Assembly (NCBI GenBank): GCA_017527155.1
Contig: JAFXQI010000020.1
Span: 1 to 35,302, forward strand
From: Kiritimatiellia bacterium
GTDB lineage: Bacteria > Verrucomicrobiota > Kiritimatiellia > CAIQIC01 > Lenti-01
Length of the DNA: 35,302 nt
Direction: 5' to 3'
Position 1 is the first letter of the stretch. Every line of letters starts with the position of its first letter. The translations under genes and the position numbers were made by a program. Below are positions 19,655 through 35,239 of this stretch, in pieces. The notes beneath the pieces were generated by a model. It did no database searches, was not told where the DNA came from, and saw nothing but the letters and a program-made list of their open reading frames with translations.

Positions 19655-21327
19655 CAACCCCGTCCGTCCCCCGCAAAGCCTTCGTCCTCGCCGCCGGACT
19701 CGGCACCCGCCTGCGCCCGCTGACCGCGGACCTGCCCAAGCCGATGCTCCCCCTGTGGGGCGTCCCGATGATCCGCCGCACGCTGGAGATGCTGCGCGAC
19801 TGGGGCGTGCGCGACGCCGTCCTGAACCTCCACCACGCGCCCGCGCCGATGATCGGATACCTGGCGGCGAATCCCGTCGACGGCCTCCGCGTCTCCTGCC
19901 TGTGGGAGCCCGAACTCCTCGGCACCGGCGGCGCCCTGCGCCAGGCGGCGGGATTCATCGGCGACGGCCCGTGCTGGCTGGTGAACGCCGACGTCTACGC
20001 GCGGCCCGACCCCGTCCCGCTCTGCCGCGAATGGGCGCGCAACCGCGCCCTCGCCGTATGCTGGCTCACCGAGGACGCCGGTCCCCGCACCGTCCGGTGC
20101 GAGCGCGGGACGATCCGCGACTTCCACGATCCGGCGCGCGGCCATGCCACCTTCTGCGGCGTGCAGATTCTCGACGCCCGCATCCTCCGCTACCTCCTCC
20201 CCGCCGGTCCCGACAGCATCATCGACGCCTACCGCCGCGCACAGGCCGACGGCCACCGCATCGCCGGCGTCCTCGAACCCGGCGCCTACTGGGCCGACAT
20301 GGGCACGCCCGCCCTTTACGTCCGGACCCACCGCGAAACCGCGGCCCTCCTCGGCCACCGCGGCGAGACCTTCACGCTGCCCGCCGCCGCCGTCTTCACC
20401 CCCGACGAACGCGCCGCCCTGCGCCGCCTGCGCACCACCGACGCCACCCCCGCCGACGTCCTGCCCCCCCGCGGCTCCTCGCGCGAATTCTTCCGCCTCC
20501 ACCCCGGCGGCGCGCCCCTCATGGCAATCCGCTGGTCCCCCGACCGCGAAGACAACCGCCTCTACGCGCCGCAGACCCGCTTCCTCGCCCGCCTCGGCGT
20601 CCCCGTTCCCCGGCTCCATCTCGACGACCCGCGCCTGCATCTCCTCGTCATGGAAGACCTCGGCACCGGCACCCTCGAAACCCTCCTCCCGGGCCTCTCT
20701 CCCTCCCGCCGCCTTGCCGTCTACCGCCGCATCCTCGCCGACGCCGTCCTCCCGCTCCACCTCCGCGGCCTGCCCGCCCTCCGCCGCTCCCGCGTGCCTG
20801 CCATGCCGCCCTTCGGCCCCGAAACCTACGCCTGGGAACACGACTACTTCCTCACCGCCTACGCCACCGGCCACGCCCGCTGGCCCGCCCGCCGCATCGC
20901 CGCCGCCCGCGACGCCCTCGCCCGCGCCGCCGCCGTCCTCCGGGACTCCCCGCACGGCCTCATCCACCGCGACCTCCAATCCAGCAACATCCTTTTCCGC
21001 GGCAAGACCGCCCCCGTCCTGATCGACTACCAAGGCATGCGCGCCGGCCCCGTCGCCTACGACCTCGCCAGCCTCCTCTGCGACCCCTACGCCGCGCTCC
21101 CCGCCGACGCCCAAGCCGCCCTCCTCCGCTACTATGCCCGCCGCCATCCCGACGGCCGCGCCATCGCCGCCGCCTTCCCCGCGGCCGCACTCCAGCGCCT
21201 CTGCCAGGCCCTCGGCGCCTACGCCACCCTTTCCCGCCGTCCCGGCATGGCCCGCTTCGCCGACTACATCCCCGCCGCCCTCGCCCAGCTCGCCCCCCAC
21301 GCCGCCGCCTTCGGGCTCCCTCTGTGA
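19651..21327 (+). CDS. MurU-AmgK fusion: muramate kinase and uridylyltransferase
   Basis: A 558-residue fusion of two cell-wall recycling activities. Residues about 8-235 form a sugar-1-phosphate nucleotidyltransferase with the signature LAAGLGTRLRPLTADLPKP, like MurU. Residues about 255-555 form an aminoglycoside-phosphotransferase-type kinase with HRDLQSSNIL (about 440) and LIDYQGMRAGPVAYDLASLL, like AmgK. In Pseudomonas these are separate adjacent genes that convert N-acetylmuramate to UDP-MurNAc, bypassing de novo synthesis and fosfomycin. The start is GTG at 19651, overlapping the upstream stop. A different hexose as substrate cannot be excluded. Confidence 0.85.
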   Translation: MTTPSVPRKAFVLAAGLGTRLRPLTADLPKPMLPLWGVPMIRRTLEMLRDWGVRDAVLNLHHAPAPMIGYLAANPVDGLRVSCLWEPELLGTGGALRQAAGFIGDGPCWLVNADVYARPDPVPLCREWARNRALAVCWLTEDAGPRTVRCERGTIRDFHDPARGHATFCGVQILDARILRYLLPAGPDSIIDAYRRAQADGHRIAGVLEPGAYWADMGTPALYVRTHRETAALLGHRGETFTLPAAAVFTPDERAALRRLRTTDATPADVLPPRGSSREFFRLHPGGAPLMAIRWSPDREDNRLYAPQTRFLARLGVPVPRLHLDDPRLHLLVMEDLGTGTLETLLPGLSPSRRLAVYRRILADAVLPLHLRGLPALRRSRVPAMPPFGPETYAWEHDYFLTAYATGHARWPARRIAAARDALARAAAVLRDSPHGLIHRDLQSSNILFRGKTAPVLIDYQGMRAGPVAYDLASLLCDPYAALPADAQAALLRYYARRHPDGRAIAAAFPAAALQRLCQALGAYATLSRRPGMARFADYIPAALAQLAPHAAAFGLPL

Positions 21328-21336
21328 AAACCTGTC

Positions 21337-21553
21337 ACGCAGAGGCGCAGAGAGGAAGAGGCGCAGAGAGAAAACGCTTCTCACGCGGAGCTGCGGAGCC
21401 GCAGAGATCCCATGTCCTGTTCAACTTGCCTGTCCTCTTCGTCCTATCCCCCTTCTTCTCTTCCCTCTCCGCGCCTCCGCGCCTCCGCGTGAGACATTTC
21501 TTCTGCCCCTCCGGGACCTCTGCCCCTCTGCTTCGCCGCGCCTCTGCGTGAGA
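21337..21553. repeat. Palindromic CACGCAGAGGCGCAGAG-type repeat
   Basis: Two left arms (about 21337-21370 and 21383-21405) pair imperfectly with two right arms (about 21465-21493 and 21519-21552), giving nested inverted repeats. The element lies between convergent genes and may act as a two-way terminator. It is related to 13566-13750. The gap of 21328-21560 holds no gene. Confidence 0.75.
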
Positions 21554-21560
21554 TTCCCCC

Positions 21561-24500
21561 CTACTCCTTTGCCCGGAAACTGAAGCGGAACACCCGCACT
21601 CCCTTCGTCTCGCCCAGCCACTCCACGGCACCCGTCTCCGCGTCGAAGCGGTAGCTCCCCGCCTCCGCCTTCTCCCAGGCCCACGCCTTGCCGTCCAGCT
21701 TCGTCGCCGTCCAGAGGTCGAACGGCGTCGTCCGGTACGCCGGATTCAGACCCACGCGCCACCCCGTCTCCGTCACCGACACCTCCTCCACCGCCGGCGC
21801 CTCGAAGTGCGCGCTTCCCGGATCCGTGAACACGGCCGCCACCGACGCCCCGGCCACGTGCGCCCCGTAGTCCTCCCCGTCCGCCTCGAACTCGTACGTC
21901 CCGTCCGGCAGCCAGAACCACAGCGACGAATCGCCCTGGTGCCCCATCCCCTCGTACCGGTACGTCCGCCCCCCGCCCAGATTCACGGCCACCACCACCG
22001 GCAGTTCCCCCGCATCCGTCGCCCACGGCACCTCCACCTCGTGCACCTCCGCCCCCGCCGCATCCACCGGCACTCCCGTCCCCTCCCGGCCGAATCCGCC
22101 GCCGATGTCCTCCCCGCCGTCGCTCCCCCGCGCCTTGACCGACCCGCCCGTGATGACCACCTCCCCCGCCGCCGGAGCCACCAGCCCGCCGCCGATGCCC
22201 GCCCCGTACTCGCCGCCGACCGCCTCCACCGTCCCCGCACGGACCTCCACCCGCCCGCTCTCCTGCAGCTTCCCGCCGCCGATGCCCGCCCCGCACTTGC
22301 CGCCGTATGCTTCCAACCGCCCCAGCCCCTGCAGTGACAGCACCGAATTCGTATCCACCCGAATCCCCGCACAGTCCTCGCCGCTCGCGATGAAGTTGTC
22401 ACCTTCCAACGTCACCTCCACCGACGCCCCTTCCAGCGCCACCGCGACCGCGTCCTTCGCATCCAGATCGACGACCAGGTTCGTCCACGTGTTCGTGAAG
22501 CTCCCGCCCGCGAACCGCACCGAATGCACCGAACTCGTCCCCGTCAGCACGTACCGTTCCGCCAGCCCCTCCACCGCGCTCCCGTCCGGCGCATACCCCG
22601 CCGTCACCCCGTTCGTCCCCACGACCACGCTCCCGTGCGTCACGTCCAGCCACAGCTCGCCGAACACCGCCCGAACCCACTTCGCGAACAGTTCCAGCGT
22701 GTCGGCGCTTGCAATCGTCTCCGCCGTCACCTCCGTCCCCGTCCCGTCCGGCCCGGTGAACCACCCGGCGAACGTCCACCCCAGCCGCTCCGGCACCGGC
22801 AGCGCATCGCCGTAGGGCTGGCCGATGACGACATCCATCCAGTCGTCCTCGCCCAGCGCGACCTGGATGGTCTCCGGCGGCACGCCGACCTTGTTCCACC
22901 AGGCCGGATCGGTCGCGATGGGCGCGTTGTAGTCGAAGACGATGGTCGCCGCCGCATCGATCCTCGCCCCGTCCGCCGCGTCATCGCGCACTTTTGCCCG
23001 GTAGGTCAGATACCCTTCCCCGCAGTGCGTCGCCGGGTCGTTCGGCGGCAGGAACCCGCTCCCGTCCTCCGGCCAGCCGAAGGTTCCCTTGGGATCGACG
23101 ATGCGCAGGTACCACTTGGCCTTCCCGGTCTCTTCGTCGTACTCCAGCACCGTCTTGACGCTCCGCCCCGTCCCGTTGGTCAGCGCGACGGCCGACCGCC
23201 CCCGCGCCAGCCCTTCCAGCCCGAGGTCCGTGTAGTCCCCGAAGGCGACCTCGCCCGCCTCGAACGTGCTCCAGTCCAGCGCCGGGTCCAGCGCCAGCTC
23301 GACCGTCACCTCCTGCGCGTCCGCCACGTCATCCCCGGCGTGGTTCTCGAAGAACACCGTGTAGTCCATCCACTGCCCGCGTTCCACCACGCGGTCCGCG
23401 CCCGTGCCCGCCGGCCCCCGCATCTCGTTCGGGTCCCACGACTGCTGGCTCTTGCCGTTTTCGCTGTCGTCGGACTGGTAGTCCGGCTTGTCGTCCTCGG
23501 GAATATCCTTCGGCTTGCCCACGTGGAGCGTCGCCTTCTTGCGGTAGGGGCCGGTGATGAAGTTCCCGTACGCTTTCAGCGAAACCGTGTAGGCTCCCTC
23601 CTTCAGGTACGTGTTGTGGGGATTGACCGCCGTGGAACCGGAGCCGTCCCCGAAGTCCCAGTCATAGCGCCGCGGTGCCTCGGAGAAGTCGAAGCCGGGG
23701 CCCTGGAAGTGCGCTCCCTTGGAGTTGTTGCTGAAGTCGAACCGCCCCGGTGCCATCGGGCACGAGAGCGGGCTGTAGGTGAAGTCGGGGGTGGGTCCGG
23801 TCAGCTTGATCAGGCTGGCCGAAATGTCGCCCACGTCGCCCTCGACGCCAAGCTTGAACTGGAACCAGGAAGGCAACCACTTTACATCCTCCCAATCGAT
23901 GAGATTGGCCTCCGCGTGGACTTTCGCGCCGACACTGATTCCGAGCGTGACGGGAGCGGCGGTCGAAGCGCGGATGGTGAGGTTGGCATATGGACCGAAA
24001 TCGGCACCGAAAGAAACCGTTTCGAACCATTTTAATTTGGCGCCCAGCGTGTATCCGATTTCGAGGCTCAACGCTCCCTCCACCTCCCCTTGCGGCGCGG
24101 AATAGATGGGCTGGATGCTACCAGGCGGCAGCCAATGGCTCTTTTCGCCCTCGTACCCTTCACGGCCGATGCAAATGGAAACCGTGCCGCCAAACGAGGC
24201 ATTCATTGAGCCGCGCAACGAAGCGGAGCCCTTGGCATAGACACCGGCGGTACCGTGCAAGGTCCACCCGGCAGGAAGGGGGATTCCTCCGGGAAATTCG
24301 ACACCTTCCCTGAAATTGCGGCTGTAGGAAGCGGAGCCTTCGAGTGAACACCACGCCTCCAGCGTCAAGGAACCTTTCAAGGCCCAATATCCGTAATTGC
24401 GGCCGTTTCGCATTTCCTGCACGAACTCGAAGCCCAGCCCCGGCGAAACATTCACTCCGCCGCGGAATCCGCCTTCGACAATCAGATTGTGGGGCTCCCG

Positions 24501-27500
24501 TGCGGAACGAGCGGCGGGATTGGCCTCTTCCCCCCCAAAATCAATCGGCACGTACACGCTCATCCCCACCTGCTGGTAGATGTCGCTCCAATCCGCATAT
24601 TCCGTCTCCAGAACCCACTTCCCGCCCTCCTTCGCGGCGGAGAGCACGCGGCGGCAGAACCACTCCTCGTTGCACTGGCCCATCAACACCATCCCGGCGG
24701 CGAGCGTCCCCGTCTCCGGTTCCCCTGCCAGCACGAGCCGCCCGTCGCTCTTTTCGAGGGCTTCCAGCGTTCCCGAGTTCGTCCCGAAGAGGATGGCTCC
24801 GTCCTGGAGGATGGTTTCGATTGCCTCTTCGACTCGCACGCAGTTTTCGTAGACGCTGGTGGTGCGCGTGCCGTCCGCCTCGGTCATGACGAGGGTGACG
24901 GTGTTCGTGCCCACGGAAGAGTAGGTCCAGGTCGGCTGCGCCTCCGTGCTGTCCACCACGCCGTCGGAGTCGAAGTCCCACTCCCAGGCGGTCGCGGAGG
25001 CGGCGCGCTCGGGATCGAGGTAGAGGAACGAGGTTTCGAGGCTCCCGAACCCGACCGACCGCGTGGGGAAGAAGAGCGGCCGCGCCGTGGAGACGAGCGC
25101 CACCACCACGTCGTCGCCCACCGCGAGAGTGACGGTGTGGTCGGGCGAGAAGGCCTCGAGCGAGTAATGCCGCACGTCGTAGGTGCCGGCGGGCAACCCG
25201 TCCAGGCTCCACGTCCCGTCCGTCTCCACGCCCACCTCGTAGGACACGCCTTCCTCCGTAATGGCCTGCACCGTCCCGTTCGTCGCGGGCGAGCCGCCGA
25301 ACGCGACCGTCCCGGAGACCCGCGCGCCCGCTTCCAGCACGAAGTCGGCCTCCAGTTCCCTCACCGTCCCGCCCAGCACGAGGTTCGAGGCGACGGCGCT
25401 GCACCACAGCCCCTGCGACTGGGCGCGGACCGTCCACGAGCCGTCGGCCAGCCCCGTGAACTCGTAGAACCCGAACCCGTCCGCCGGCACGGCGGCGGCG
25501 ACGGCGGTCTCTTCGCCATCGTACAGCGCCACCGTTCCGCCCGCCACGGCATTCCCCTCCCCGTCCAGAACGTGGCCCGAAATCCGCCCGCCCGGCACCG
25601 CGTGCAGTTCCAGCCCGTTCACGTCCGCCTGCGCGGCGACATCAACCTCGTTCGTGCTGTCCGCCGCCAGCACCGTCCCCGCATCCGGCAGGAACCGGTA
25701 CGCCCCGTCCGCCAGCCCCGCCAGCGAGAACCACCCATCCGAATCCGTCACCGCCGTCGCCGCCGCCCCGCCGTCCTCCGCCGCGATGGCCGAGATTCCC
25801 ACGCCCGCCAGCGGCGTCCGCGCCGCCGCGTCGACCAGCCGCCCGCTGATGGCGGCGCAGGGCTGCCCGTTGCGCTCCAGCAGCGACTGGGCCACGAGCG
25901 CGTGCAGGTCGGCCACCGCCGCGCCCCGCAGCGCCAGCCGCGTCGCCGCCGCGGCCACCGCCTCCCGGTAGCCCGCCACCCCGCCGAACGCCGGGAACGC
26001 CCCCGCCGCTTCCGCCTCCTCCATGTGCGCAAGACCCAGCCGGTAGCTCCCGAACGGCTGGAAGAAGAACGCCACCCGCCCCTCCTCGCCCGGCTTGAGC
26101 ACGCCCGCCGGGGCCGACGGCGCCACGCCGCCGATGTACAGCGCCGTCTCCACCGGCATCTCCCCCGCCGCCAACCCCAGCTTCGTCGTCGAATCCAGCC
26201 GCGACACCTTGAACAGCGGCATCGGCATCGCCGCATCCCCCGCATTCCGGTAGCACACGTGCGCCGTGAACACCCGCCCGTCGCGGATGCTTCCCGGCGT
26301 CTCCAGCCACGCCTCCAGCTTCGCCCCCTCCTTCACCGCGTAAATCTCCACCGCCCCCGCCAGCGCCGCCCCCGCCGCCGACACCTCCGCCGCGCCCGCC
26401 GCCGCCCCGTCCACGTCGAACGTCGCCAGCACGCGCGCGGCATCGATGCGTTCAACCGCCAACGCCTTGCGACCGCCGAGCGCCGCCGCCCCCGCGTCCA
26501 GCCCGCACCCGTAGAGCGTCAGCGCCGCCTCCCCCGCGTTCGGCACCCGCGAAGGCGAAACCGCCAGCAGCGCCGGCGACTCCGCCGATACCGTGACCTC
26601 CGCCTCCGCCGGCGCGCCGCTCCCGTTCGCGAGCGAAAGATACGCGCTCTCCCCGGCCTCCCGCGCCGGAAGCACGACCAGCCAGTTCCCGTCCGGCAGC
26701 GCCACCGCCGCCGTACCGCCGCCGTCCGCCGTCGGCATCGCCCCGTTCCCGGCCAGCACCGCGAGACTCCCCGCGCCCGCGCCGGAAACCCGCACCCAGC
26801 CGCCCGCCTCCGGCAGCCCCTCCAGCTCGTACCCCGCCGTCGCCCCTGCCCCCACCGCCACCGTGCGCGTCCCCGCCGACAGCGCGTCCAGCTTCACCTC
26901 CACCGTCCCCGCCGACCACGCCCGGTTGTTGCCGAGGTTCGCCTCGAAGAAATCCCTCGCCGGGTTCGCCTCCACCCCCACCTGCCACGCCCCCGCCGCC
27001 ACCGCCGGAATCCGCACCTTCGCCGTCATCCGCGCGCTCGCCCCCGGTTCCAGCCCGTACCCCTGCACCGCTTCCACCGCCTCCACCGACATCCCCGCCG
27101 TCCCCTCGTCCGCCCCGCGCAGGCGGATTGCGTCCCGCACCGTCCCCGACGCCACCGCCGTCCCCCGGTTCGTCACCACGTACGCCACCGTCACCTCCTC
27201 CCCCACCCGCGCGCTCGCCGGAACCGACACCGACAGCACCGCCACGTCCGCCATCGGCCCCGTCACCGTCCCCGGCACCTCGTAGATCCCGATGTCCGCG
27301 CACGCCCCCTCCGCGTTCGGCACCCCCGTGTTTTCCGCCGCCTTCACGTCCATCCGCGGCTGACCCCACGCATCCCGCTCCGGCGCGACCGAACTGTCCC
27401 CCGCGTCCACGCACGGCGAAGCCGCCGCAATGCGGAAATCCCCGCCATCCGCATCCACGAACTGCGGATCGCCCCACTTGTTCCCGTTGCTCCCCGCCTT

Positions 27501-28862
27501 CGAATACGACTGCGCCCCGTACCCCGCCGGATTCCAGAACACGCAATGCCGGAACGTCGAACCGTCCCCGCCCTGGTCCGTGAACGACTGGCATTCGCTG
27601 AACACGCAGTTCACCAATTCCTTGCCGCTCTGGCGCACCGCCGTCGTCAGCCCGTGGAACACGCAGTTGAACGCCTTGACCCGCCCGCTCCCGTAGTAGC
27701 CCAGTCCCAGCGATCCCTCCCGGATCACGCTGTTGCGCGCCGTGAACGTCCCGCTCGAATGCGCGTTCACGCTGTCGTACTTCATGAACGCGATCTCCCC
27801 GTTGTCGAACTCCACCGTCCCCCCGTACGCCTCCACCCCCCCGTAGTTCTCCGTCGAACTCGCGTACAGCACCGAGCAGTGGTCCATGATTGCCGTCCCC
27901 TGCACCCGGATCTGGTACCAGTCGCCGGGCTGCGGGCGGGTCGCGTCTCCGTCTCCATTGGTGTCGCCGCCGTGCTCGTCGTCCTTCACGGAGGTACACA
28001 CGATCGGCTCCGCGCGCGTCCCCTGGGCCACGAGCGTGGCCCCGGAGGCGACAGTGACGGAAAGGCCGCTACCCATCTTGATGATGGCACCGGGCGCGAT
28101 GGTCACGGTGACGCCCGACGCAATGGTGATGTTGCCGACGGCCGTGTAGACCCTGTGCCCCTGGAGCCGCGTGTCATACGAAAGCGTGCCGCCCAGGACC
28201 ACCGGCGCCGTGTACCGTTCCTCCGTCGCGTCGTCCTCCGTGATGCTCCCCGAGAGCGTGTACGCCCCCGTCGCGGGCACCGTCCCGTTCCCGTCCATCA
28301 TCGTGTCCCCGCCCACCGTGTCGTCCGCCACGTGCGTGAAAATAACCCCGTTCGCCGTGCAGCTCCCCCCGCTCGCCACACTCAATCCCGTCCCGTCCAT
28401 GAACTTCACCACCGCCCCGCTCTCGATTGTCAGCGCCGCCCCGCTCCCCACCGTCACCGCCGCCGTCACCAAATGAACCTTCCCCGCCGCCCACGTCTCG
28501 CTTCCCGAGATGGCCCCCGCGTGCAACACCACGTCATCCCCCAGCACCGTGAACGCCGCCTCCAGCGCCACGCCCCCCGACTCGTGCGTCAGCACGTGCA
28601 GCCCCGTCCCCTCCGGCACCCACTCCGCGACCTTCTCCTCCCCCGCCGCCGCCGTGGCGAGAACCGCCCCGTCCGCCGTGACCCTCGCCGCGGCTCCGTA
28701 CCACCGCCCCGAAAGCGCGATGCGTTCGGCGACCCCTTCGCTTGCAATCCGCGTCCCGTCCCGCGTATCCAGCACCATCGGCGCGGAATCCCCCGCCCAG
28801 ACGCCCGCCGCGCCCAGCACCGCCGCCGTCCAGACCAAAACCCTGCGCATTGCCTTGCTCAT
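21561..28862 (-). CDS. Giant secreted multidomain adhesin-like protein
   Basis: A 2,433-residue exported protein. Approximate order: signal peptide 1-23; right-handed beta-helix/repeat region 70-500; CARDB-like domain 535-655; carboxypeptidase-regulatory-like domains near 1005, 1095 and 1185; PKD domain near 1295 (WEWDFDSDG); a beta-rich region; second PKD near 1737 (YDWDFGDGSG); a DUF11-like segment 1820-1980; an InlB B-type repeat near 2027 (GWTFAGWFTG); and a Gly-rich region 2120-2225 with repeated GAGIGGG, like carbohydrate-binding Cthe_2159-type proteins. No sorting tail is visible. The start at 28862 follows GAGGAG by 6 nt. It probably binds glycans or surfaces; the actual ligand is unknown. 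Confidence 0.88.
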   Translation of the reverse strand: MSKAMRRVLVWTAAVLGAAGVWAGDSAPMVLDTRDGTRIASEGVAERIALSGRWYGAAARVTADGAVLATAAAGEEKVAEWVPEGTGLHVLTHESGGVALEAAFTVLGDDVVLHAGAISGSETWAAGKVHLVTAAVTVGSGAALTIESGAVVKFMDGTGLSVASGGSCTANGVIFTHVADDTVGGDTMMDGNGTVPATGAYTLSGSITEDDATEERYTAPVVLGGTLSYDTRLQGHRVYTAVGNITIASGVTVTIAPGAIIKMGSGLSVTVASGATLVAQGTRAEPIVCTSVKDDEHGGDTNGDGDATRPQPGDWYQIRVQGTAIMDHCSVLYASSTENYGGVEAYGGTVEFDNGEIAFMKYDSVNAHSSGTFTARNSVIREGSLGLGYYGSGRVKAFNCVFHGLTTAVRQSGKELVNCVFSECQSFTDQGGDGSTFRHCVFWNPAGYGAQSYSKAGSNGNKWGDPQFVDADGGDFRIAAASPCVDAGDSSVAPERDAWGQPRMDVKAAENTGVPNAEGACADIGIYEVPGTVTGPMADVAVLSVSVPASARVGEEVTVAYVVTNRGTAVASGTVRDAIRLRGADEGTAGMSVEAVEAVQGYGLEPGASARMTAKVRIPAVAAGAWQVGVEANPARDFFEANLGNNRAWSAGTVEVKLDALSAGTRTVAVGAGATAGYELEGLPEAGGWVRVSGAGAGSLAVLAGNGAMPTADGGGTAAVALPDGNWLVVLPAREAGESAYLSLANGSGAPAEAEVTVSAESPALLAVSPSRVPNAGEAALTLYGCGLDAGAAALGGRKALAVERIDAARVLATFDVDGAAAGAAEVSAAGAALAGAVEIYAVKEGAKLEAWLETPGSIRDGRVFTAHVCYRNAGDAAMPMPLFKVSRLDSTTKLGLAAGEMPVETALYIGGVAPSAPAGVLKPGEEGRVAFFFQPFGSYRLGLAHMEEAEAAGAFPAFGGVAGYREAVAAAATRLALRGAAVADLHALVAQSLLERNGQPCAAISGRLVDAAARTPLAGVGISAIAAEDGGAAATAVTDSDGWFSLAGLADGAYRFLPDAGTVLAADSTNEVDVAAQADVNGLELHAVPGGRISGHVLDGEGNAVAGGTVALYDGEETAVAAAVPADGFGFYEFTGLADGSWTVRAQSQGLWCSAVASNLVLGGTVRELEADFVLEAGARVSGTVAFGGSPATNGTVQAITEEGVSYEVGVETDGTWSLDGLPAGTYDVRHYSLEAFSPDHTVTLAVGDDVVVALVSTARPLFFPTRSVGFGSLETSFLYLDPERAASATAWEWDFDSDGVVDSTEAQPTWTYSSVGTNTVTLVMTEADGTRTTSVYENCVRVEEAIETILQDGAILFGTNSGTLEALEKSDGRLVLAGEPETGTLAAGMVLMGQCNEEWFCRRVLSAAKEGGKWVLETEYADWSDIYQQVGMSVYVPIDFGGEEANPAARSAREPHNLIVEGGFRGGVNVSPGLGFEFVQEMRNGRNYGYWALKGSLTLEAWCSLEGSASYSRNFREGVEFPGGIPLPAGWTLHGTAGVYAKGSASLRGSMNASFGGTVSICIGREGYEGEKSHWLPPGSIQPIYSAPQGEVEGALSLEIGYTLGAKLKWFETVSFGADFGPYANLTIRASTAAPVTLGISVGAKVHAEANLIDWEDVKWLPSWFQFKLGVEGDVGDISASLIKLTGPTPDFTYSPLSCPMAPGRFDFSNNSKGAHFQGPGFDFSEAPRRYDWDFGDGSGSTAVNPHNTYLKEGAYTVSLKAYGNFITGPYRKKATLHVGKPKDIPEDDKPDYQSDDSENGKSQQSWDPNEMRGPAGTGADRVVERGQWMDYTVFFENHAGDDVADAQEVTVELALDPALDWSTFEAGEVAFGDYTDLGLEGLARGRSAVALTNGTGRSVKTVLEYDEETGKAKWYLRIVDPKGTFGWPEDGSGFLPPNDPATHCGEGYLTYRAKVRDDAADGARIDAAATIVFDYNAPIATDPAWWNKVGVPPETIQVALGEDDWMDVVIGQPYGDALPVPERLGWTFAGWFTGPDGTGTEVTAETIASADTLELFAKWVRAVFGELWLDVTHGSVVVGTNGVTAGYAPDGSAVEGLAERYVLTGTSSVHSVRFAGGSFTNTWTNLVVDLDAKDAVAVALEGASVEVTLEGDNFIASGEDCAGIRVDTNSVLSLQGLGRLEAYGGKCGAGIGGGKLQESGRVEVRAGTVEAVGGEYGAGIGGGLVAPAAGEVVITGGSVKARGSDGGEDIGGGFGREGTGVPVDAAGAEVHEVEVPWATDAGELPVVVAVNLGGGRTYRYEGMGHQGDSSLWFWLPDGTYEFEADGEDYGAHVAGASVAAVFTDPGSAHFEAPAVEEVSVTETGWRVGLNPAYRTTPFDLWTATKLDGKAWAWEKAEAGSYRFDAETGAVEWLGETKGVRVFRFSFRAKE

Positions 28863-28863
28863 T

Positions 28864-31161
28864 TCATGCTCCTCTCGTCGTTTGAACAACCGTTTTCCGT
28901 TTGATTTGCGGACATTCCGCCCCGCTTTCCAAAAACAATTCCTTGCATTTCCCATCCCCTTCCGTACATTTGATGGCAGTTCGCGGTTGCATCTGCAATC
29001 GCCCGACGCCATCGAACAGGAGGCACCCCATGAAAACCATGACCATCCGCAACATCCCCGACGACGTGGCCACCGCCCTCGCAGAGCGCGCCCGCGAAAC
29101 CGGCCGCAGCATGAACGCCGCCGCCGTCGCCGCCCTTTCCATGGCCTTTTCCCCCGCCGTCCCCAAGCCCAAGCGCGACCTCTCCGAATTCGCCGGCATC
29201 ATGACCCCCGAAGAGGCGGCGGAATTCGAGCGGTTCATCGAAGAGGACTGCGAGCGCATCGACCCCGAAGAGTGGCCCGGCCTCCCTCCCTCCGCCTTTG
29301 CCCCCTGGCCCTCCCACCTTCCCCGGCCCGTGCCATGATCATCTGCATCGACACCAACGCCTACGCCAAATTCGTCACCGGCCATCCGGCCGTGCGCGCT
29401 CTTCTCGAAAACGCCGAAGAGGTCGTCATCCCCGCCGCCGTCGTCGCGGAATCCTATGACGGCTTCGCCAACGGGTCCAAATTCCAGCGGAACGTCGCCG
29501 CCTTCGAGGCCTTTCTGGCCCGTCCCGGCATCCGTGTCCTGCCCGCCGACAAGCGGATCGCCATCCGCTGGGGCCTCATCAGGACGGCGCTCCGCCGCAA
29601 GGGCCGCCCCATCCCCGTCAACGACATCTGGATTGCCGCCACCGCCTTCGAAACCGGTGCCGTCCTCCTTTCCTACGACCACCACTTCGACGCCATCGAA
29701 GGCCTCCCACGCCTCGCACCGTGAGATCGAGGATCCCGACAACGACCGCAACCTCTCCCGGTACGACTCCGTGGACGCCCTGTAAGCATCGTATCCCGCA
29801 CCGGTTTCCACGCCGACCTCTTCGGCCAATAGTCCCCGTCCCGCAAACAAAGGAGTACCCGCCATGCCCGCGCCCGACGCCCTTCCTCCCGGCGAAACCC
29901 GCACCGACGAAGAAGAAGCAAACGAAACCCCGAACGCCGAAACCGCCGCCACTCTCCAGCGCGTCTTGGACGGTACGGAACCGACATACGGTCCTTTCGA
30001 TTCGGTGGAAGAAATGTTCGCTTTCATCTTGAAGAACGACTGAAGGACCCCCACGCCGACCTCTTCGGCCTCTGACCGCCGCTGGGGGCGCGGGCGTCCC
30101 GCCCGCGATGGGGGGGGGCTTCCAGCCGCGTTTCCCGCCCCCTTTTGCCATCCCCTGCCCCCTGCCCCCTGTCCCCTCTCCCTCCCCCGCCGCCACCCCA
30201 GCGTCTCCCCCTGTTGCAGGAACGCCGTCAGCGCCGTCATCCGCGCCTGGTAGGTCCCCTCGTCCCAGCCCCCCTCTGCAAGCAGCCGCCCGTACAGCGC
30301 GCTCTTGCACCGAAACCGTTCCAGACTCGCCTTCGCCGCCCGCACCCGGCCCGGGAACACCCGCATTCCCAGGAAATCCATCCCGTGCCGCGTCCGGTTC
30401 AGGTACGGCTCCCCCTTGAACGCCAGTCCCAGCTCCCGGCCCAGCAGATCCCCCACCCCGTCCCGCACCGCCTTCAGCACCTCCCGGTCGTCGCTCCAGA
30501 ACACGAAATCGTCCATGTACCGCACATATCCCCCCACCCGTGTTCCGCCCCTCTCCCGCCAGCGGTCCAGCGGATCCAGAAACAAATTCGCCAGATGCTG
30601 GCTCGTCAGGTTCCCGATGGGCAGCCCCCGCCCCGGCACCGTCTCGTACGTCCCCACGATCCGCATCAGCCACTCCCGCACCGCCCGGTCCTTGATCCGC
30701 CGTTCCAGCATCGCCTCCAGCCCCTCGTGCGGGATGCTGTCGAAATACTTCCGCACGTCGCACTTCAGGAACCACCCATGCCGTCCCGCCAGCTCCCGCG
30801 CCCGCCGCACCGCCGCCAGCTGACCCTTCCCCTTGCGGCACGCGAACGAGTCCGGCACCAGCCACCGTTCCACCCACGGCTCCAGCACGTTCATCAGCCC
30901 GTGGTGCAGCACCCGTTCCCGGAACGCCGCCGCGCAGATCGTTCGTTCCTTCGGCTCGTGGATCGTGAACCGCCGGTACTCCCCCACCGGATAGCTCCCC
31001 TCCAGCAACCCCTCACGCAGCGCCGCCAGCTCCGCATCCAGGTTCGCCGCGTACGCCCGCTGGTCCGCCCGCGCCCGCTTCCCCCGGCTCGCCTTCCAGA
31101 ACGCCAGCCGCAGGTTCTCCGGCTCGCACACCGCCTCCATCAGATGCCCTGCCCGCCTCAT
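28864..31161 (-). CDS. DGR reverse transcriptase; core 30180-31161, frame open to 28864
   Basis: A reverse transcriptase of the diversity-generating retroelement class. Residues 1-325 show the whole domain: motif A FLKCDVRKYFDS (about 131-142), the DGR signature LPIGNLTSQHLANLFL (about 180-195), catalytic YMDD in GGYVRYMDDFVFW (about 210-222), and the end of the domain at LTAFLQQGETLGWRR. It copies the template RNA with errors at adenines. The ATG at 31161 overlaps the stop of the HRDC gene (ATGA). No in-frame stop occurs until 28864, so as sequenced the product would be 765 residues. The last ~430 residues are largely antisense to toxin-antitoxin genes and are not credible. A one-base loss in the 9-nt homopolymer at 30110-30118 would end the protein at 30024 (378 residues). 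Confidence 0.9.
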   Translation of the reverse strand: MRRAGHLMEAVCEPENLRLAFWKASRGKRARADQRAYAANLDAELAALREGLLEGSYPVGEYRRFTIHEPKERTICAAAFRERVLHHGLMNVLEPWVERWLVPDSFACRKGKGQLAAVRRARELAGRHGWFLKCDVRKYFDSIPHEGLEAMLERRIKDRAVREWLMRIVGTYETVPGRGLPIGNLTSQHLANLFLDPLDRWRERGGTRVGGYVRYMDDFVFWSDDREVLKAVRDGVGDLLGRELGLAFKGEPYLNRTRHGMDFLGMRVFPGRVRAAKASLERFRCKSALYGRLLAEGGWDEGTYQARMTALTAFLQQGETLGWRRGRERGQGAGGRGWQKGAGNAAGSPPPSRAGRPRPQRRSEAEEVGVGVLQSFFKMKANISSTESKGPYVGSVPSKTRWRVAAVSAFGVSFASSSSVRVSPGGRASGAGMAGTPLFAGRGLLAEEVGVETGAGYDAYRASTESYRERLRSLSGSSISRCEAWEAFDGVEVVVVGKEDGTGFEGGGGNPDVVDGDGAALAAERRPDEAPADGDPLVGGQDTDAGTGQKGLEGGDVPLEFGPVGEAVIGFRDDGGGDDDLFGVFEKSAHGRMAGDEFGVGVGVDADDHGTGRGRWEGQGAKAEGGRPGHSSGSMRSQSSSMNRSNSAASSGVMMPANSERSRLGLGTAGEKAMERAATAAAFMLRPVSRARSARAVATSSGMLRMVMVFMGCLLFDGVGRLQMQPRTAIKCTEGDGKCKELFLESGAECPQIKRKTVVQTTRGA
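28943..28970 (+). promoter_or_regulatory. Promoter of VapBC-like operon
   Basis: TTGCAT (28943-28948), a 16-nt spacer and TACATT (28965-28970). The antitoxin start is at 29030, so this transcript has a leader of about 50 nt with an AGGAGG site, unlike the leaderless genes nearby. Confidence 0.6.
29030..29338 (+). CDS. Ribbon-helix-helix antitoxin, VapB/FitA-like
   Basis: A 102-residue protein. The N-terminus (MTIRNIPDDVATALAERARETGRS) has the strand-helix-helix pattern of FitA/VapB antitoxins, which bind the operon's operator and, through an acidic C-terminal tail, block the PIN toxin. The tail here (about 60-90) is rich in Glu and Asp, as expected. AGGAGG lies 6 nt before the ATG. The stop overlaps the toxin start (ATGA). 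The gene lies antisense to the formal extension of the DGR reverse-transcriptase frame. Confidence 0.82.
   Translation: MKTMTIRNIPDDVATALAERARETGRSMNAAAVAALSMAFSPAVPKPKRDLSEFAGIMTPEEAAEFERFIEEDCERIDPEEWPGLPPSAFAPWPSHLPRPVP
29335..29724 (+). CDS. PIN-domain toxin, VapC-like
   Basis: A 129-residue PIN-domain ribonuclease, the usual VapC length. Metal-binding acidic residues are seen in IDTNAYAKF (Asp near residue 5), in the central AVVAES, and in the C-terminal VNDIWIAATAFETG and LLSYDHHFDAIEGL. VapC toxins cut tRNA or rRNA when the antitoxin is degraded. Translation is coupled to the antitoxin through the ATGA overlap. The pair is probably functional. It stands at the edge of the retroelement, next to older toxin-antitoxin debris. 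Confidence 0.87.
   Translation: MIICIDTNAYAKFVTGHPAVRALLENAEEVVIPAAVVAESYDGFANGSKFQRNVAAFEAFLARPGIRVLPADKRIAIRWGLIRTALRRKGRPIPVNDIWIAATAFETGAVLLSYDHHFDAIEGLPRLAP
29723..29785 (+). pseudogene. Relic of antitoxin C-terminus
   Basis: Frame EIEDPDNDRNLSRYDSVDAL-stop directly after vapC resembles the C-terminal end of RelB/DinJ-type antitoxins, with the SV(D/E) ending also seen in the small gene at 29864. No start or N-terminal half is present in frame. Confidence 0.4.
29797..29832 (+). pseudogene. Relic of toxin C-terminus (YafQ-like)
   Basis: The frame RTGFHADLFGQ-stop resembles the conserved end of YafQ/RelE-type toxins (Gly-x-His-x-x-Leu-Phe). It follows the antitoxin relic by 11 nt. The toxin body is missing. 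The same CACGCCGACCTCTTCGGCC string recurs at 30052. Confidence 0.4.
29864..30043 (+). CDS. Small acidic protein, orphan antitoxin-like
   Basis: A 59-residue protein with an acidic, probably disordered N-terminus and the C-terminal motif YGPFDSVEEMFAFILKND, which resembles the toxin-binding end of RelB/DinJ-type antitoxins. AAAGGAG precedes the ATG by 8 nt, so it is likely translated. A scar of a toxin C-terminus follows directly, so this appears to be an antitoxin that has lost both its DNA-binding part and its toxin. It overlaps, in antisense, the extension of the reverse-transcriptase frame. Confidence 0.55.
   Translation: MPAPDALPPGETRTDEEEANETPNAETAATLQRVLDGTEPTYGPFDSVEEMFAFILKND
30049..30075 (+). 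pseudogene. Second relic of toxin C-terminus
   Basis: The frame PHADLFGL-stop repeats the toxin-end motif of 29797-29832 and again comes directly after an antitoxin-like gene, which points to a deletion of the toxin body. Confidence 0.4.
30078..30136. repeat. GGGGGCGCGGGCGTCCCGCCCGCG-type repeat (positions as given)
   Basis: GCGGGCG and CGCCCGC pair across a short loop at about 30090-30106. The sequence that follows (GGGGCTTCCAGCCGCGTTTCCCG) is shared with 31195-31230 and 33711-33740. The 9-G tract at 30110-30118 lies inside the repeat. Confidence 0.6.
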
Positions 31162-31802
31162 GCCCCACCCTCCGCTGGGGGCGCCCCCCTGGGGGATGCG
31201 CCTTCCAGCCGCGTTCCCGATGGGACAAGGGCGTCCCCGCCCTTGCAGCTGGGGGATGCGGCTTCCTGCCGCGTCTCTTCTTCCCTTCCCACGCGGCAGG
31301 ATGCCGCATCCCCCAAGTCCTCCCTCTCCACCGCTCCACTCGTCACTCGTCTCTCGTCACTCGTCACTGCCGCCCCCAGCAGCCTCTCCCCGTACTTCGC
31401 CACCCGCGCCTCCCCGAACCCCTCGATCCGCCCCAAATCCGCCTTCGTCGGCCGTTCCGCCTTCGCCAGTTGCGCCATCTGCGCGTCCGTCATCACCACG
31501 AACGGCTTCACCCCGTCCGCCTCCGCGATCTCCATCCGCGCCTTCCGCAACCGCACGAACCGGTCGAACGCCGCCGGCTCCAGCACCTCCCGGTAATCCA
31601 CCTTCCCCCCCCGGAACCCCGCCGCCGGCACCGGCGCCGACGGCCCCGCCCCCTCCATCCACTCCACGCAGAACGCCCACCCGTTCGGGAACACCGCCCG
31701 CTCCACCGCCAGCGTCCGGTGACCCCGGATGAACGCATCCATCGCCTCCTGCGCCGCCTCCCCGCCCGTGTGCGGAACGAAAAACGTCCGGTACAGCGTC
31801 AT
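31158..31802 (-). CDS. HRDC-domain DGR accessory protein
   Basis: A 214-residue protein. Residues about 68-142 form an HRDC domain (landmarks FDRFVRLRKARMEIAEADG, VVMTDAQMAQLAKAERP and DLGRIEGFGEARVAKYGE), a helical nucleic-acid-binding module known as an accessory in some retroelements of this type, in place of Avd. It probably assists the reverse transcriptase in handling template RNA or target DNA. Residues after about 146 are encoded by intergenic repeats, including a 24-bp-arm palindrome, so the native C-terminus was shorter. The stop overlaps the RT start. A structured T6-ending segment and a 9-G tract lie just upstream of the ATG. Confidence 0.83.
   Translation of the reverse strand: MTLYRTFFVPHTGGEAAQEAMDAFIRGHRTLAVERAVFPNGWAFCVEWMEGAGPSAPVPAAGFRGGKVDYREVLEPAAFDRFVRLRKARMEIAEADGVKPFVVMTDAQMAQLAKAERPTKADLGRIEGFGEARVAKYGERLLGAAVTSDERRVTSGAVEREDLGDAASCRVGREEETRQEAASPSCKGGDALVPSGTRLEGASPRGAPPAEGGA
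31165..31250. repeat. TGGGGGATGCGCCTTCCAGCC-like repeat in HRDC tail
   Basis: Bases 31189-31242 (landmarks GGGGGATGCG, TTCCAGCCGCG and ACAAGGGCG) closely match 33709-33765 upstream of the DGR target. Here they are translated in frame as the last residues of the HRDC protein. Confidence 0.65.
31251..31314. repeat. 24-bp-arm palindrome inside the HRDC gene
   Basis: Arm 31251-31274 pairs with 31291-31314 with a single mismatch, and the loop is 16 nt. It encodes about residues 163-184 of the HRDC protein. Confidence 0.85.
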
Positions 31803-31828
31803 CTCACGCCCTCGCCCCCCCCCTGCGC

Positions 31829-31891
31829 AAAAAACGGCCCGCCCGCAGCCTTCCCGCGGACTCCGTCCGCCGTACCAACGGCGGGCGGGCC
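31829..31891 (-). terminator. Branched hairpin plus T6 downstream of the DGR template
   Basis: On the minus strand GGCCCGCCCGC (31891-31881) pairs perfectly with GCGGGCGGGCC (31846-31836). Inside are a 6-bp hairpin at 31870-31856 and a smaller one at about 31882-31869. One base later comes T6 (31834-31829). It could end the template RNA or serve as the structured spacer that primes reverse transcription. Confidence 0.65.
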
Positions 31892-31970
31892 TCGCTTTTC
31901 GCCACACCGCCTCGCGGCGGCGCGGACCGGATGGCGCCGGGGACTGCACGATTCTCCGAATCCTGCGGTG

Positions 31971-32106
31971 CTGCGGAGCAACAGAGGCGCAAGCCGATGT
32001 TGTTGTTCCTGTTCGACGGGTTGTTGTTGTTGCGGTTCGCGGAGCGGCAGTTCTGCGCGTTGTTGTTCCAGCTGCCGCCACGTTGCACGCGGTTCGAACC
32101 CGACGC
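31971..32106 (-). repeat. DGR template repeat (TR)
   Basis: A 136-bp non-coding template that matches the variable repeat at 32270-32405. It is full of AAC triplets; read in the target frame it would give runs such as GSWNNN and NNNNPSNRNNN. The last 29 bp in its own direction (31999-31971) are identical to the variable repeat, as is a 21-bp stretch at the opposite end (32106-32086). There are 33 adenines in the 107-bp mutable part, 21 of them changed in the variable repeat. It lies between target and HRDC gene. Confidence 0.96.
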
Positions 32107-32258
32107 TTCTCGCCGCCACCCAAATCCTTCCCCCCGCTCGCTCCGCTCCGCGTCCCTCATCGGGCGCCGCGCTCCGCGCTCGCGCCCTCTTCGGCACGCT
32201 CCGCTCCGCTCGCTCGCCACCATCCTCTGCCCTGCCTGCTTGCCTGTGGATTCGGAGT

Positions 32259-33551
32259 TCATCGCAGTCCTGCGGAGCAACAGAGGCGCAAGCCGATGGA
32301 GTTGTACCTGCCCGACGGGGCGTAGTCGCAGCGGTCCGCGGAGCGGCAGTCCCGCGCGTAGCCGCCCCAGCCGCCGCCACGTAGCACGCGGTTCGAACCC
32401 GACGCAGGCCCCACGGGGTCGGTGACGGCATCGGCGGTGACGGAAGCCAGCCAATCCAGGCACCACTCCCAGACGTTCCCGTGCATGTCGTACAGCCCCC
32501 ACGCATTCGGCATATAGCTCCCCACGGTCGTGTGCCCGCTGGTGTACCCGCCCTTCCCGTCGCTTTGGTTGTAATAGTACCGCCCAACCTCCGCCATGTT
32601 CGTGCAACTGCTTGTCCCCGTCAGATTCTTCCCGCTGTTGAGCGCCGTCGTCGTCCCTGCCCGGCACGCATACTCCCACTGTGCCTCCGTCGGCAAATCC
32701 CACGCGAACCCGCCCGCCCGCGCCCGGAGCTTCCCCATGAAGCTCGCCGCGTCCACCTCCGAAGACGACGGCCAGTTGTACGTCGAAGAATTTCCGCGAA
32801 TCGTGTTCCACGAAACATATTCCACCGGACGCATGTCTCCCGTGTAAGATGACGGATTGCTCCCCATCACCAGCTCCCACTGCTTCTGCGTCACCTCGAA
32901 CACCCCCATGTAGAACGGCTGCGTGATCGTCACCTCGTGCCGGATTTCGTTGTAGGAAGATGAATCCCCGGACCGCCCCAGCTCATCCGACGGACTGCCC
33001 ATCGTGTACGTCCCCGGCATGATCCGCCGGAGCACGAGCTTCGTCGTCTTGAACTCGTCCGACCACCCGCCCTGCGGCTCCGCGCCGAGGAAACTCACCG
33101 GATAGACCGCCCCGTCCCCGCTCCCCGCCGAGAGGTCGAGTACCAGATACATCCCCTCGCCCGCCAGCGCCTGCACCTCCACCGTCACCGCATCGGCGAC
33201 CGTCCCCGCCGCATCCTTCCCCGCGTCCCAGACCAGCCGCCCCTTGCCCCCCGGCAGCTCCTGCGCCTTCACGACCAGTTCCTCCCCGAACTCCCCCCCC
33301 TCCAGCTTCACCGTCCGCACCGGCAACGCCTTCCCCGTCCCCTCGTCCCGCGCGCTCGCGTACAGCGTCAGGTTCGTCCCCGGCTCGCTGCACGCCACCT
33401 CGAAGTCGATGTCCACCAGCCCGTTCCACGGATACCGCTGCCGCGCCGTCACGTTCGTCACCGTCACCTCCGCGGCGGCCGCCGCCCATGTGCACGCCCC
33501 CCACGCCGCGAGAGCCAAACCCGTCCGCCACGCCATCGTCCAACCCTTCAT
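32259..33551 (-). CDS. DGR target protein, secreted FGE-sulfatase fold
   Basis: A 430-residue exported protein. The signal peptide covers residues about 1-26 (GLALAAWGACTWAAAAAE). An Ig-like beta domain follows (about 27-130), and then a formylglycine-generating-enzyme/sulfatase-modifying domain (about 160-428) with PGTYTMGSP, FEVTQKQWE, LPTEAQWEYACRAGT and YDMHGNVWEWCLDW. This C-type-lectin-like fold is a common scaffold for retroelement-diversified binding proteins. The variable repeat covers about the last 48 codons and ends 11 bp before the stop. The ATG at 33551 is chosen for its AAAGGA site and signal peptide. It probably displays a variable ligand-binding face; enzyme activity is unlikely. 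Confidence 0.93.
   Translation of the reverse strand: MKGWTMAWRTGLALAAWGACTWAAAAAEVTVTNVTARQRYPWNGLVDIDFEVACSEPGTNLTLYASARDEGTGKALPVRTVKLEGGEFGEELVVKAQELPGGKGRLVWDAGKDAAGTVADAVTVEVQALAGEGMYLVLDLSAGSGDGAVYPVSFLGAEPQGGWSDEFKTTKLVLRRIMPGTYTMGSPSDELGRSGDSSSYNEIRHEVTITQPFYMGVFEVTQKQWELVMGSNPSSYTGDMRPVEYVSWNTIRGNSSTYNWPSSSEVDAASFMGKLRARAGGFAWDLPTEAQWEYACRAGTTTALNSGKNLTGTSSCTNMAEVGRYYYNQSDGKGGYTSGHTTVGSYMPNAWGLYDMHGNVWEWCLDWLASVTADAVTDPVGPASGSNRVLRGGGWGGYARDCRSADRCDYAPSGRYNSIGLRLCCSAGLR
32270..32405 (-). repeat. DGR variable repeat (VR)
   Basis: The copy of the template that is rewritten by the retroelement. It differs from the template at 21 of 136 positions, all of them template adenines on the coding strand. 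The invariant last 29 bp (32298-32270) are the likely initiation-of-homing site. Protein changes include asparagine to Gly, Tyr, Asp, Cys, Ala and Ser; 15 residues differ. Confidence 0.96.
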
Positions 33552-33607
33552 CGCCGTAGTCCTTTCCGCTGTTTTTCCGTGCATTTTCCCGTTCACGCCC
33601 CCGTACG

Positions 33608-33636
33608 ATATTCAAAAAAAAAAAAATACAATCCAA
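33608..33636 (-). promoter_or_regulatory. DGR target promoter with T13 spacer tract
   Basis: On the minus strand TTGGAT (33636-33631), a 17-nt spacer that contains 13 consecutive T (33626-33614), and GAATAT (33613-33608). A leader of roughly 50 nt with AAAGGA precedes the ATG at 33551. Such a tract could change spacer length by slippage. Confidence 0.6.
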
Positions 33637-33678
33637 ATCGCCGCAAACCCCGTCCCTCCCCGCCGGTGCGACCTCCAG

Positions 33679-33790
33679 CCTGGGGGCGCGGGCGTCCCGC
33701 CCGCGCTGGGGGATGCGCCTTCCAGCCGCGTTCCCGATGGGGCAAGGGCGCCCCCGCCCTTGATGCAAGGCCGGGGCGGCCTTGCCACAG
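33679..33790. repeat. Intergenic palindromic repeat cluster
   Basis: GGCGCGGGCG and CGCCCGCGC pair near 33684-33707. The rest matches the repeat at 31189-31242 (landmarks GGGGGATGCG, TTCCAGCCGCG and CAAGGGCG). It lies between the divergent target gene and hypD. Together with the promoters on either side it accounts for most of the gene-free stretch 33552-33860. Confidence 0.65.
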
Positions 33791-33825
33791 CGTTCCCGCC
33801 TCCCATTCCCCTCTCCAATGCATTC

Positions 33826-33853
33826 TTGCATTCGGCCTCCCTCCCGCTACACT
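33826..33853 (+). promoter_or_regulatory. Promoter upstream of hypD
   Basis: TTGCAT (33826-33831), a 16-nt spacer and TACACT (33848-33853). An ATG lies 7 nt later at 33861, the same spacing as at leaderless genes in this window. hypD itself starts 182 nt further on. Confidence 0.6.
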
Positions 33854-33860
33854 TCCTTGC

Positions 33861-34046
33861 ATGGCATGTTTGTACACGCAATCCTCAAGGGCCATCAAGG
33901 AATCTTCCGCTGGATGTGCCAAAAGTCGATTTGTCCCTCTTTGTCCTGTTTGTCTCCAAAACGTTTCCGGGACAGGCGGCGGAGCGTTGGCGGAGTCCTC
34001 GGACCCATCGGAGTTTGGTTTCTTCTCTGAGTGCCCTCCCCGATGA
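33861..34046 (+). CDS. Possible 61-residue leader ORF of hypD
   Basis: ATG at 33861 stands 7 nt after a good -10 box and opens a 61-codon frame whose TGA overlaps the hypD ATG (ATGA). Both points support translation and coupling. Against it, the frame runs through the TTTGTCC repeat block and resembles no protein I know. The peptide has several cysteines (for example CLYTQ, CAKSRF and CPVCLQ), which may be chance. It may instead be an untranslated leader. Confidence 0.35.
   Translation: MACLYTQSSRAIKESSAGCAKSRFVPLCPVCLQNVSGTGGGALAESSDPSEFGFFSECPPR
33930..33974 (+). repeat. TTTGTCC direct repeats, copy 2
   Basis: TTTGTC words begin at 33930, 33940 and 33949, about one helical turn apart, followed by GTCTC/GGGAC arms. 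Matches 106-153. Lies about 70-110 nt before hypD, where it could bind a regulator. Confidence 0.5.
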
Positions 34047-35125
34047 CCTCCCCCATCCCCCAGCTCCTCTCCCGCCTCCGCGACCTCCGCCCCGCGCGGC
34101 CCTTCCGCGTCATGGAAGTCTGCGGCGGGCAGACCCACTCCATCCTGCGCCACGGACTCGACCTCCTGCTCGAAGAACACGCCAACATCCAGCTTCTCCA
34201 CGGCCCCGGATGCCCCGTCTGCGTGATCCCCGCCGACTACCTCGACCGAGCCATCGCCCTCTCCCGCCAGCCCGACACCCTCGTCTGCACCTTCGGCGAC
34301 CTCATCCGCGTCCCCTCCGGCTCCTCCGGCGATCTCTACGCCGCCCGCGCCGCCGGCGCCCGCATCCGGACGTGCCTCTCGCCTCTCGACGCCCTCGACC
34401 TGGCCGAAAAGAACCCATCCCTCCGCGTCATCTGGCTGGCGATCGGATTCGAGACCACGGCCCCGGCCCACGCCCTGGCCCTCCGCCTCGCCCGCGAGCG
34501 CGGTCTGGCCAACTACTCCGTCCTGCCCTCCCTCTTCCTCCTCCCGCCGGTTCTCCGCGCCATCTGCGCCGCCCCCGACACCGCGCCGGACGCCTTCCTC
34601 GCGGCCGGGCACGTCTGCACCGTAACCGGCTCCGCCCCCTACGACGCCCTGGCGGCCGAGCTCCGCCGCCCCATCGCCATCACCGGTTTCACCCCCGAAG
34701 AAATCCTCCTCGGCGCCTACCACGCCCTCCGCCTGCACGCCGACGGAACCCCGTCCTGCTTCAACGCCTACCCCTCGGCCGTCCACCCCGACGGCAACCC
34801 CGCCGCCCGCGCCCTCATGGACGAAACCTTCGTGACCTGCGACCAGACCTGGCGCGGCCTCGGCATCCTTCCCCGGAGCGGCCTGGCCCTCGCCCCCGCC
34901 TACGCCGCCTTCGACGCCAACGCCCTCCTGCCGGACGCCTCCGTCCCGGCGCCCGCCCCCGACGCCCCCGCCTGTCCGGCCTCCCGGATCCTCCGCGGCC
35001 TGCTTTCCCCGCCCGACTGCCCCTTCTACGGCACCCGCTGCACCCCCGACACCCCTCTCGGCGCCCCCATGGTCTCCCCCGAGGGCGCCTGCTCCGCCTT
35101 CTATCTCCACCGCCCCCGCCCCTGA
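34043..35125 (+). CDS. hypD: Hydrogenase maturation factor HypD
   Basis: A 360-residue HypD. With HypC it forms the scaffold on which the Fe(CN)2CO group of [NiFe]-hydrogenase is built from carbamoyl phosphate via HypF and HypE. Conserved motifs are VCGGQTHSI (about 25-33), GPGCPVCV (about 54-61) and IGFETTAPAHA (about 138-148). The C-terminal cysteine cluster CPFYGTRCTPDTPLG...SPEGAC binds the [4Fe-4S] cluster. ATG at 34043 is preferred; GTG at 34031 is an in-frame alternative. No other hyp or hydrogenase gene lies in the window, so partners must be elsewhere or just beyond 35302. Confidence 0.95.
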   Translation: MTSPIPQLLSRLRDLRPARPFRVMEVCGGQTHSILRHGLDLLLEEHANIQLLHGPGCPVCVIPADYLDRAIALSRQPDTLVCTFGDLIRVPSGSSGDLYAARAAGARIRTCLSPLDALDLAEKNPSLRVIWLAIGFETTAPAHALALRLARERGLANYSVLPSLFLLPPVLRAICAAPDTAPDAFLAAGHVCTVTGSAPYDALAAELRRPIAITGFTPEEILLGAYHALRLHADGTPSCFNAYPSAVHPDGNPAARALMDETFVTCDQTWRGLGILPRSGLALAPAYAAFDANALLPDASVPAPAPDAPACPASRILRGLLSPPDCPFYGTRCTPDTPLGAPMVSPEGACSAFYLHRPRP

Positions 35126-35239
35126 ATCCGGCACCGTAACGGGATCGGCTTCCCGGATGCGCCCCGTTCGCGAAAACGGCGGCGGGGGTGCCGTCGCTCC
35201 GCACTCGTCCCCCCCCTTGTTCGTTCCCCCCTTGTTTGT

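Follow-up and report, generated by a model that had tools for sequence, protein, structure and literature searches.

The window analysed here, a stretch of 35,302 nt, carries a run of 13 T's upstream of the target gene of a DGR. This locus raises the question of whether the tract belongs to the promoter of the target gene, where slippage could tune the expression of a hypermutating protein, or whether it has another role or none.

The DGR cassette and its T13 tract

The following features of the cassette were read from the window:
33614-33626, minus strand: T13 homopolymer, read from the sequence and unique in the genome
33558-33565, minus strand: likely ribosome-binding site (GGAAAGGA region), read from the sequence just 5′ of the ATG at 33551
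32259-33551, minus strand: DGR target gene with a signal-peptide-like N-terminus, an FGE-sulfatase (C-type-lectin-like) domain (Pfam PF03781, 1.6e-38) and a C-terminal VR, from the translation
32264-32405, minus strand: variable repeat (VR), with A-specific differences from TR
31965-32106, minus strand: template repeat (TR), from the repeat comparison with VR
31828-31910, minus strand: strong terminator-like hairpin with a T6 run after it, separating TR from the HRDC gene (-49 kcal/mol, z -3.6)
31158-31802, minus strand: HRDC-domain accessory protein (PF00570, 7.5e-16)
28864-31161, minus strand: DGR reverse transcriptase (RT) ORF, with the RT domain in the first ~340 codons (PF00078, 4.7e-14)

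Judged from its sequence, the locus is an ordinary, complete-looking chromosomal DGR. VR, which makes up about the last 48 codons of the target gene, differs from TR at 23 of 142 positions; 21 of these 23 differences fall at TR adenines and the other two at the 3′ edge. This A-specific pair is accompanied by an RT near TR, and VR lies at the 3′ end of a lectin-fold target. On the minus strand, T13 is followed by the target gene, VR, TR, the hairpin, the HRDC protein and the RT, whose gene start overlaps the end of the HRDC gene. The best NCBIfam match of the RT is a group II RT, below the cut-off. DGRs with FGE-fold targets are established, and the locus shares TR, VR, RT, the FGE-fold target and the A-specific changes with bacterial chromosomal DGRs that have C-type-lectin/FGE-fold targets and an HRDC-type accessory protein. 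It differs from them in the homopolymer at the target promoter, which is not usual among such loci (2/31 surveyed).

The first-pass annotation had placed a T13 tract upstream of a diversified DGR target gene. The assembly sequence bears this out exactly (T13 on the minus, coding strand; A13 on the plus strand), and the VR/TR pair, the RT and the FGE-sulfatase target support the DGR itself. Within the window T13 stands alone as a long A/T run, the next longest having 6 nt; C8-C10 and G9 runs are also present in this DNA of ~70% GC. Whole-genome pattern searches, with overlapping matches counted, found 27 T8, three T9 and one T13 among the A/T runs of at least 8 nt in the 3.23-Mb assembly and none of 10-12 nt; T13 is the sole A/T run of at least 10 nt in the genome. 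It lies far outside the run-length distribution: when the decay in run length is extrapolated, between 0.0003 (at a decay ratio of 0.10) and 0.04 (at 0.27) runs of at least 13 nt are expected per genome.

The candidate promoter around the tract

Two pairs of hexamers were considered around T13:
33631-33636, minus strand: candidate -35 TTGGAT of the first-pass annotation (4/6 match; 3.9 bits)
33608-33613, minus strand: candidate -10 GAATAT of the first-pass annotation (3/6 match, with A at position 2 and T at position 6; 2.8 bits)
33626-33631, minus strand: alternative -35 TTGTAT, overlapping the tract; top-scoring site, with a 15-nt spacer to TATCGT
33605-33610, minus strand: alternative -10 TATCGT, paired with TTGTAT in the top-scoring site

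T13 occupies the stretch 63-75 nt ahead of the likely ATG (33551), a suitable distance for a promoter. The proposal that it fills a 17-nt spacer was upheld in part: TTGGAT and GAATAT are found in place, 17 nt apart, with T13 between them and GAATAT abutting the tract, but they match at only 4/6 and 3/6 positions and the alternative with a 15-nt spacer scores higher. Their description as the best promoter of the target gene was not supported. Using a sigma70 matrix of E. coli frequencies, TTGTAT-15-TATCGT scored 9.0 bits and TTGGAT-17-GAATAT 7.9 bits, the leader of the target gene ranked 61st among 164 genes in a 435-kb sample of its own genome, and an equal score was reached by 14% of Markov-random 200-mers. 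A stricter scan of this leader reported no promoter. De-novo motif discovery by EM drifted towards a palindromic repeat, TTTTCC/GGAAA, that is abundant in this DNA, and was discarded as a source of a promoter motif. The T tract was also rejected as the U-tract of an intrinsic terminator; no GC stem reaches it, and the region folds no better than shuffled sequences (z -0.18).

Varying the tract in silico changed the best promoter score from 10.9 bits (T10) to 8.5 (T12), 9.0 (T13) and 11.9 bits (T15), and over T8-T15 it moved between about 8.1 and 11.9 bits. The score rises and falls with tract length because two -35-like hexamers overlap. This dependence is a prediction of the model and not evidence of promoter activity.

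Our proposal is that T13 forms part of the promoter of the DGR target gene and makes it length-sensitive. Slippage would add or remove T's and shift the distance and facing of the -35 relative to the -10 element, and this change in spacing would tune transcription of the hypervariable protein. The TR RNA, located downstream on the same strand and before the strong terminator, would probably be tuned as well. The sequence itself establishes the tract and its uniqueness in the genome, along with the DGR, its gene order and a terminator-like hairpin; what we infer is that the T13 promoter is the active one, that tract length varies and that expression responds to such variation. We rate the proposal at somewhat less than an even chance, because the hexamers are weak and the tract length is known from one genome. 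The ambiguous promoter call and the lack of enrichment of tracts at DGR targets (see below) also count against it.

The main rival is a static A/T-rich promoter element, whereby the T tract, set in intergenic DNA of very high GC content, acts as a UP-like element, as curved DNA or as a spacer that melts easily, and its length is no switch. The T13 patch is indeed the only A/T-rich stretch in the leader of the target gene, and in the same genome clear promoters of tRNA genes have T8 tracts immediately upstream (TTGACG-17-TATTGT, L140; TTGCCA-16-TATAGT, L142). However, a static element need not consist of 13 pure T's, and no other A/T run in the genome is longer than 9; furthermore, TTGAAT as a -35 has no good -10 at the right distance downstream. 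Such an element is conceivable here, but on balance we consider it unlikely.

The tract in the sister species and at other DGR loci

Comparison of the flanks with those of the sister species (G001) delimited an island:
21329-34074, no strand assigned: island without a counterpart in the sister species

The flanks 19970-21328 and 34075-35129 are about 180 nt apart in the sister species (contig C69), where hypD (protein 95% identical) closely neighbours the gene whose end is near 21328 in the window. The DGR stretch is missing at that site and therefore represents either a 12.7-kb insertion here or a loss there. Since the island is missing from the sister species, the T13 promoter has no orthologue for comparison. 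A T18 run of the sister species (L156 9603-9620, G001:C206), the only other run of at least 11 nt in the family, was rejected as an orthologous tract; it is located within a Mur-ligase-like gene, 4 nt short of the end of its contig, and is likely to be an assembly artefact. This T18 invites the suspicion that the length of T13, or the tract itself, is likewise an error of assembly. T13, however, is 1.7 kb away from the end of its contig and the genes flanking it are intact; we consider an artefact highly improbable.

The nearest named relatives found in searches with the target protein were MAGs of Kiritimatiellae, Lentisphaerae and Verrucomicrobia, many of ruminant origin. No T tract was found upstream of FGE paralogues in the same genome or in the sister species. 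Likewise, no A/T run of at least 8 nt was found near the 5′ end of other DGR targets in the DGR loci of the family and the class and in 42 viral contigs, and a search of viral contigs with a variable-gap pattern found none for a comparison of tract length. Homopolymer tracts occurred at 2/31 DGR targets vs 4/171 in the comparison set (p=0.23); a general link between DGR targets and homopolymer tracts was not supported. A G12 run at about -235 from the start of the DGR target of G164 (L289, G164:C6) was set aside, as there is no convincing promoter around it.

These comparisons bear on a further explanation, namely that the tract arose by neutral slippage in non-coding island DNA, has no regulatory role and that the true promoter is elsewhere. 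The sister species without the island, the promoter scores at background level and the lack of conservation of the tract at other DGR loci would all fit. On the other hand, the start codon 63-75 nt downstream of T13 has a ribosome-binding site, and the 200-nt leader contains no better promoter; neutral expansion seems decidedly unlikely to us.

Besides the DGR, the island carries a gene for a PKD/CARDB/beta-helix protein of 2483 aa and, at 29030-29724, some small genes. A GC-rich interspersed repeat (GGGGGATGCGnCTTCCnGCCGCG and neighbours) is present at 31184-31315, 33680-33762 and 30082-30131, and three of its five exact pattern matches in the genome are inside the island, around the DGR genes. 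A palindromic TTTTCCAAnnnTTGGAAAA element has about 50 copies in the 435-kb sample of the same genome, and some T8/T9 runs of this genome sit between TTTTCCAAnnnTTGGAAAA copies.

Putative homopolymer-spacer promoters in the class

The length-sensitive promoter proposed for T13 draws further on relatives of the bacterium, in which homopolymers appear to occupy the spacers of good sigma70 promoters upstream of secreted proteins, one DGR target included. The strict pattern TTGACN{5,10}G10TANNNT was searched in 15 genomes and then in 276, where it gave 19 matches in 15 genomes vs none for the reversed control; the genome of the window contains no match to it. These putative promoters combine TTGACA, a linker, poly-G(10-12) and TAAAAT or TATAAT with spacers of 14-19 nt, upstream of secreted or autotransporter-like proteins (L297, L329-L343). 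According to a crude hydrophobicity test, 14 of the 17 assessable downstream genes have a signal-peptide-like start vs 68/243 (28%) control genes from the genome of the window (p=1e-5), and several appeared autotransporter- or PEP-CTERM-like by eye. The pattern matches across the class together with the secreted-like genes indicate that a homopolymer in the promoter spacer is a repeated feature of surface-type genes in this lineage, and the poly-G promoters probably constitute a phase-variable surface repertoire of the class.

By sequence pattern, one of the 19 poly-G promoters is positioned to drive a DGR target gene, so at least one such target lies behind a predicted homopolymer-spacer promoter. 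The target, in a genome of the same class (G104), is a protein of 871 aa with InlB-repeat and FGE-sulfatase domains, and 19/19 VR/TR differences are at adenines. Its promoter reads TTGACA-AGACGC-GGGGGGGGGGG-TAAAAT, in which G11 closes a 17-nt spacer between an exact -35 and a 5/6 -10 (11/12 in the scan). Neither the looser nor the strict spacer pattern matches anywhere else in G104; the reversed control gave one match there with the looser pattern and none with the strict one. Both this locus (L267/L297) and the window have an FGE-sulfatase DGR target, a homopolymer abutting the candidate -10 and a 17-nt spacer, but G104 combines G11 with near-consensus hexamers, whereas T13 is flanked by weak ones.

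The order of candidate -35, a few nucleotides, homopolymer and candidate -10 is common to the T13 site and the 19 stronger poly-G promoters, and T13 is plausibly an A/T version of the contingency promoters that in this lineage usually carry poly-G in their spacers. The most economical account is that the lineage uses spacer homopolymers as contingency loci for surface proteins, although for T13 itself this falls short of an even chance. The position of T13 and the clearer G104 promoter suggest that on/off switching may combine with targeted hypermutation. More tentatively, and with greater doubt than for T13 alone, a contingency-locus promoter layered on a DGR may switch or tune a hypermutating surface protein in Kiritimatiellae, perhaps together with the template RNA, and may have arisen at least twice (T13 here and G11 in G104).

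Comparable promoters are established in other bacteria. In Neisseria, the poly-C tract of fetA and the T/G tract of porA, which includes a T8-T11 run, lie in the promoter spacer, and their length sets the spacing and hence the expression of an outer-membrane protein (PMC5320596). In the window, too, a homopolymer is placed between the candidate -35 and -10 of a surface-type gene; these loci, however, have no DGR and their tract variation is demonstrated, whereas at T13 the hexamers are weak and such variation is predicted. The poly-T tract at the sabA promoter of H. pylori, most commonly T13-T17, tunes an adhesin gene; it adjoins the -35 and acts through alignment with UP-like elements (PMC4081817). 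It resembles T13 in length, but T13 lies in the candidate spacer and not beside the -35.

No homopolymer-controlled DGR target was apparent from the titles and abstracts of the listed open-licence papers naming DGRs with phase variation or homopolymers; phase variation in PMC10053308 concerns the host of the phage. The open-licence papers searched included none naming both Kiritimatiellae and phase variation, and the putative phase-variation repertoire of this class, with its poly-G promoters and secreted or autotransporter-like proteins, is apparently unreported. If the proposal for T13 is true, on/off expression and targeted sequence diversification, two systems of hypervariability with different logic, would act on one gene, providing a test case for how bacteria avoid paying for the display of DGR variants that are mostly of no use.

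Further tracts were observed. A C9 run on the plus strand (G9 on the minus strand) at 31815-31823, ~12 nt upstream of the HRDC gene ATG, offers a further place within the DGR cassette where slippage could occur. In the genome G151 (L305, L315, L322), G14-G15 runs stand just 5′ of the start codon of each of three genes whose signal peptides (MKHIKMF...) are almost identical, apparently within a shared duplicated 5′ cassette.
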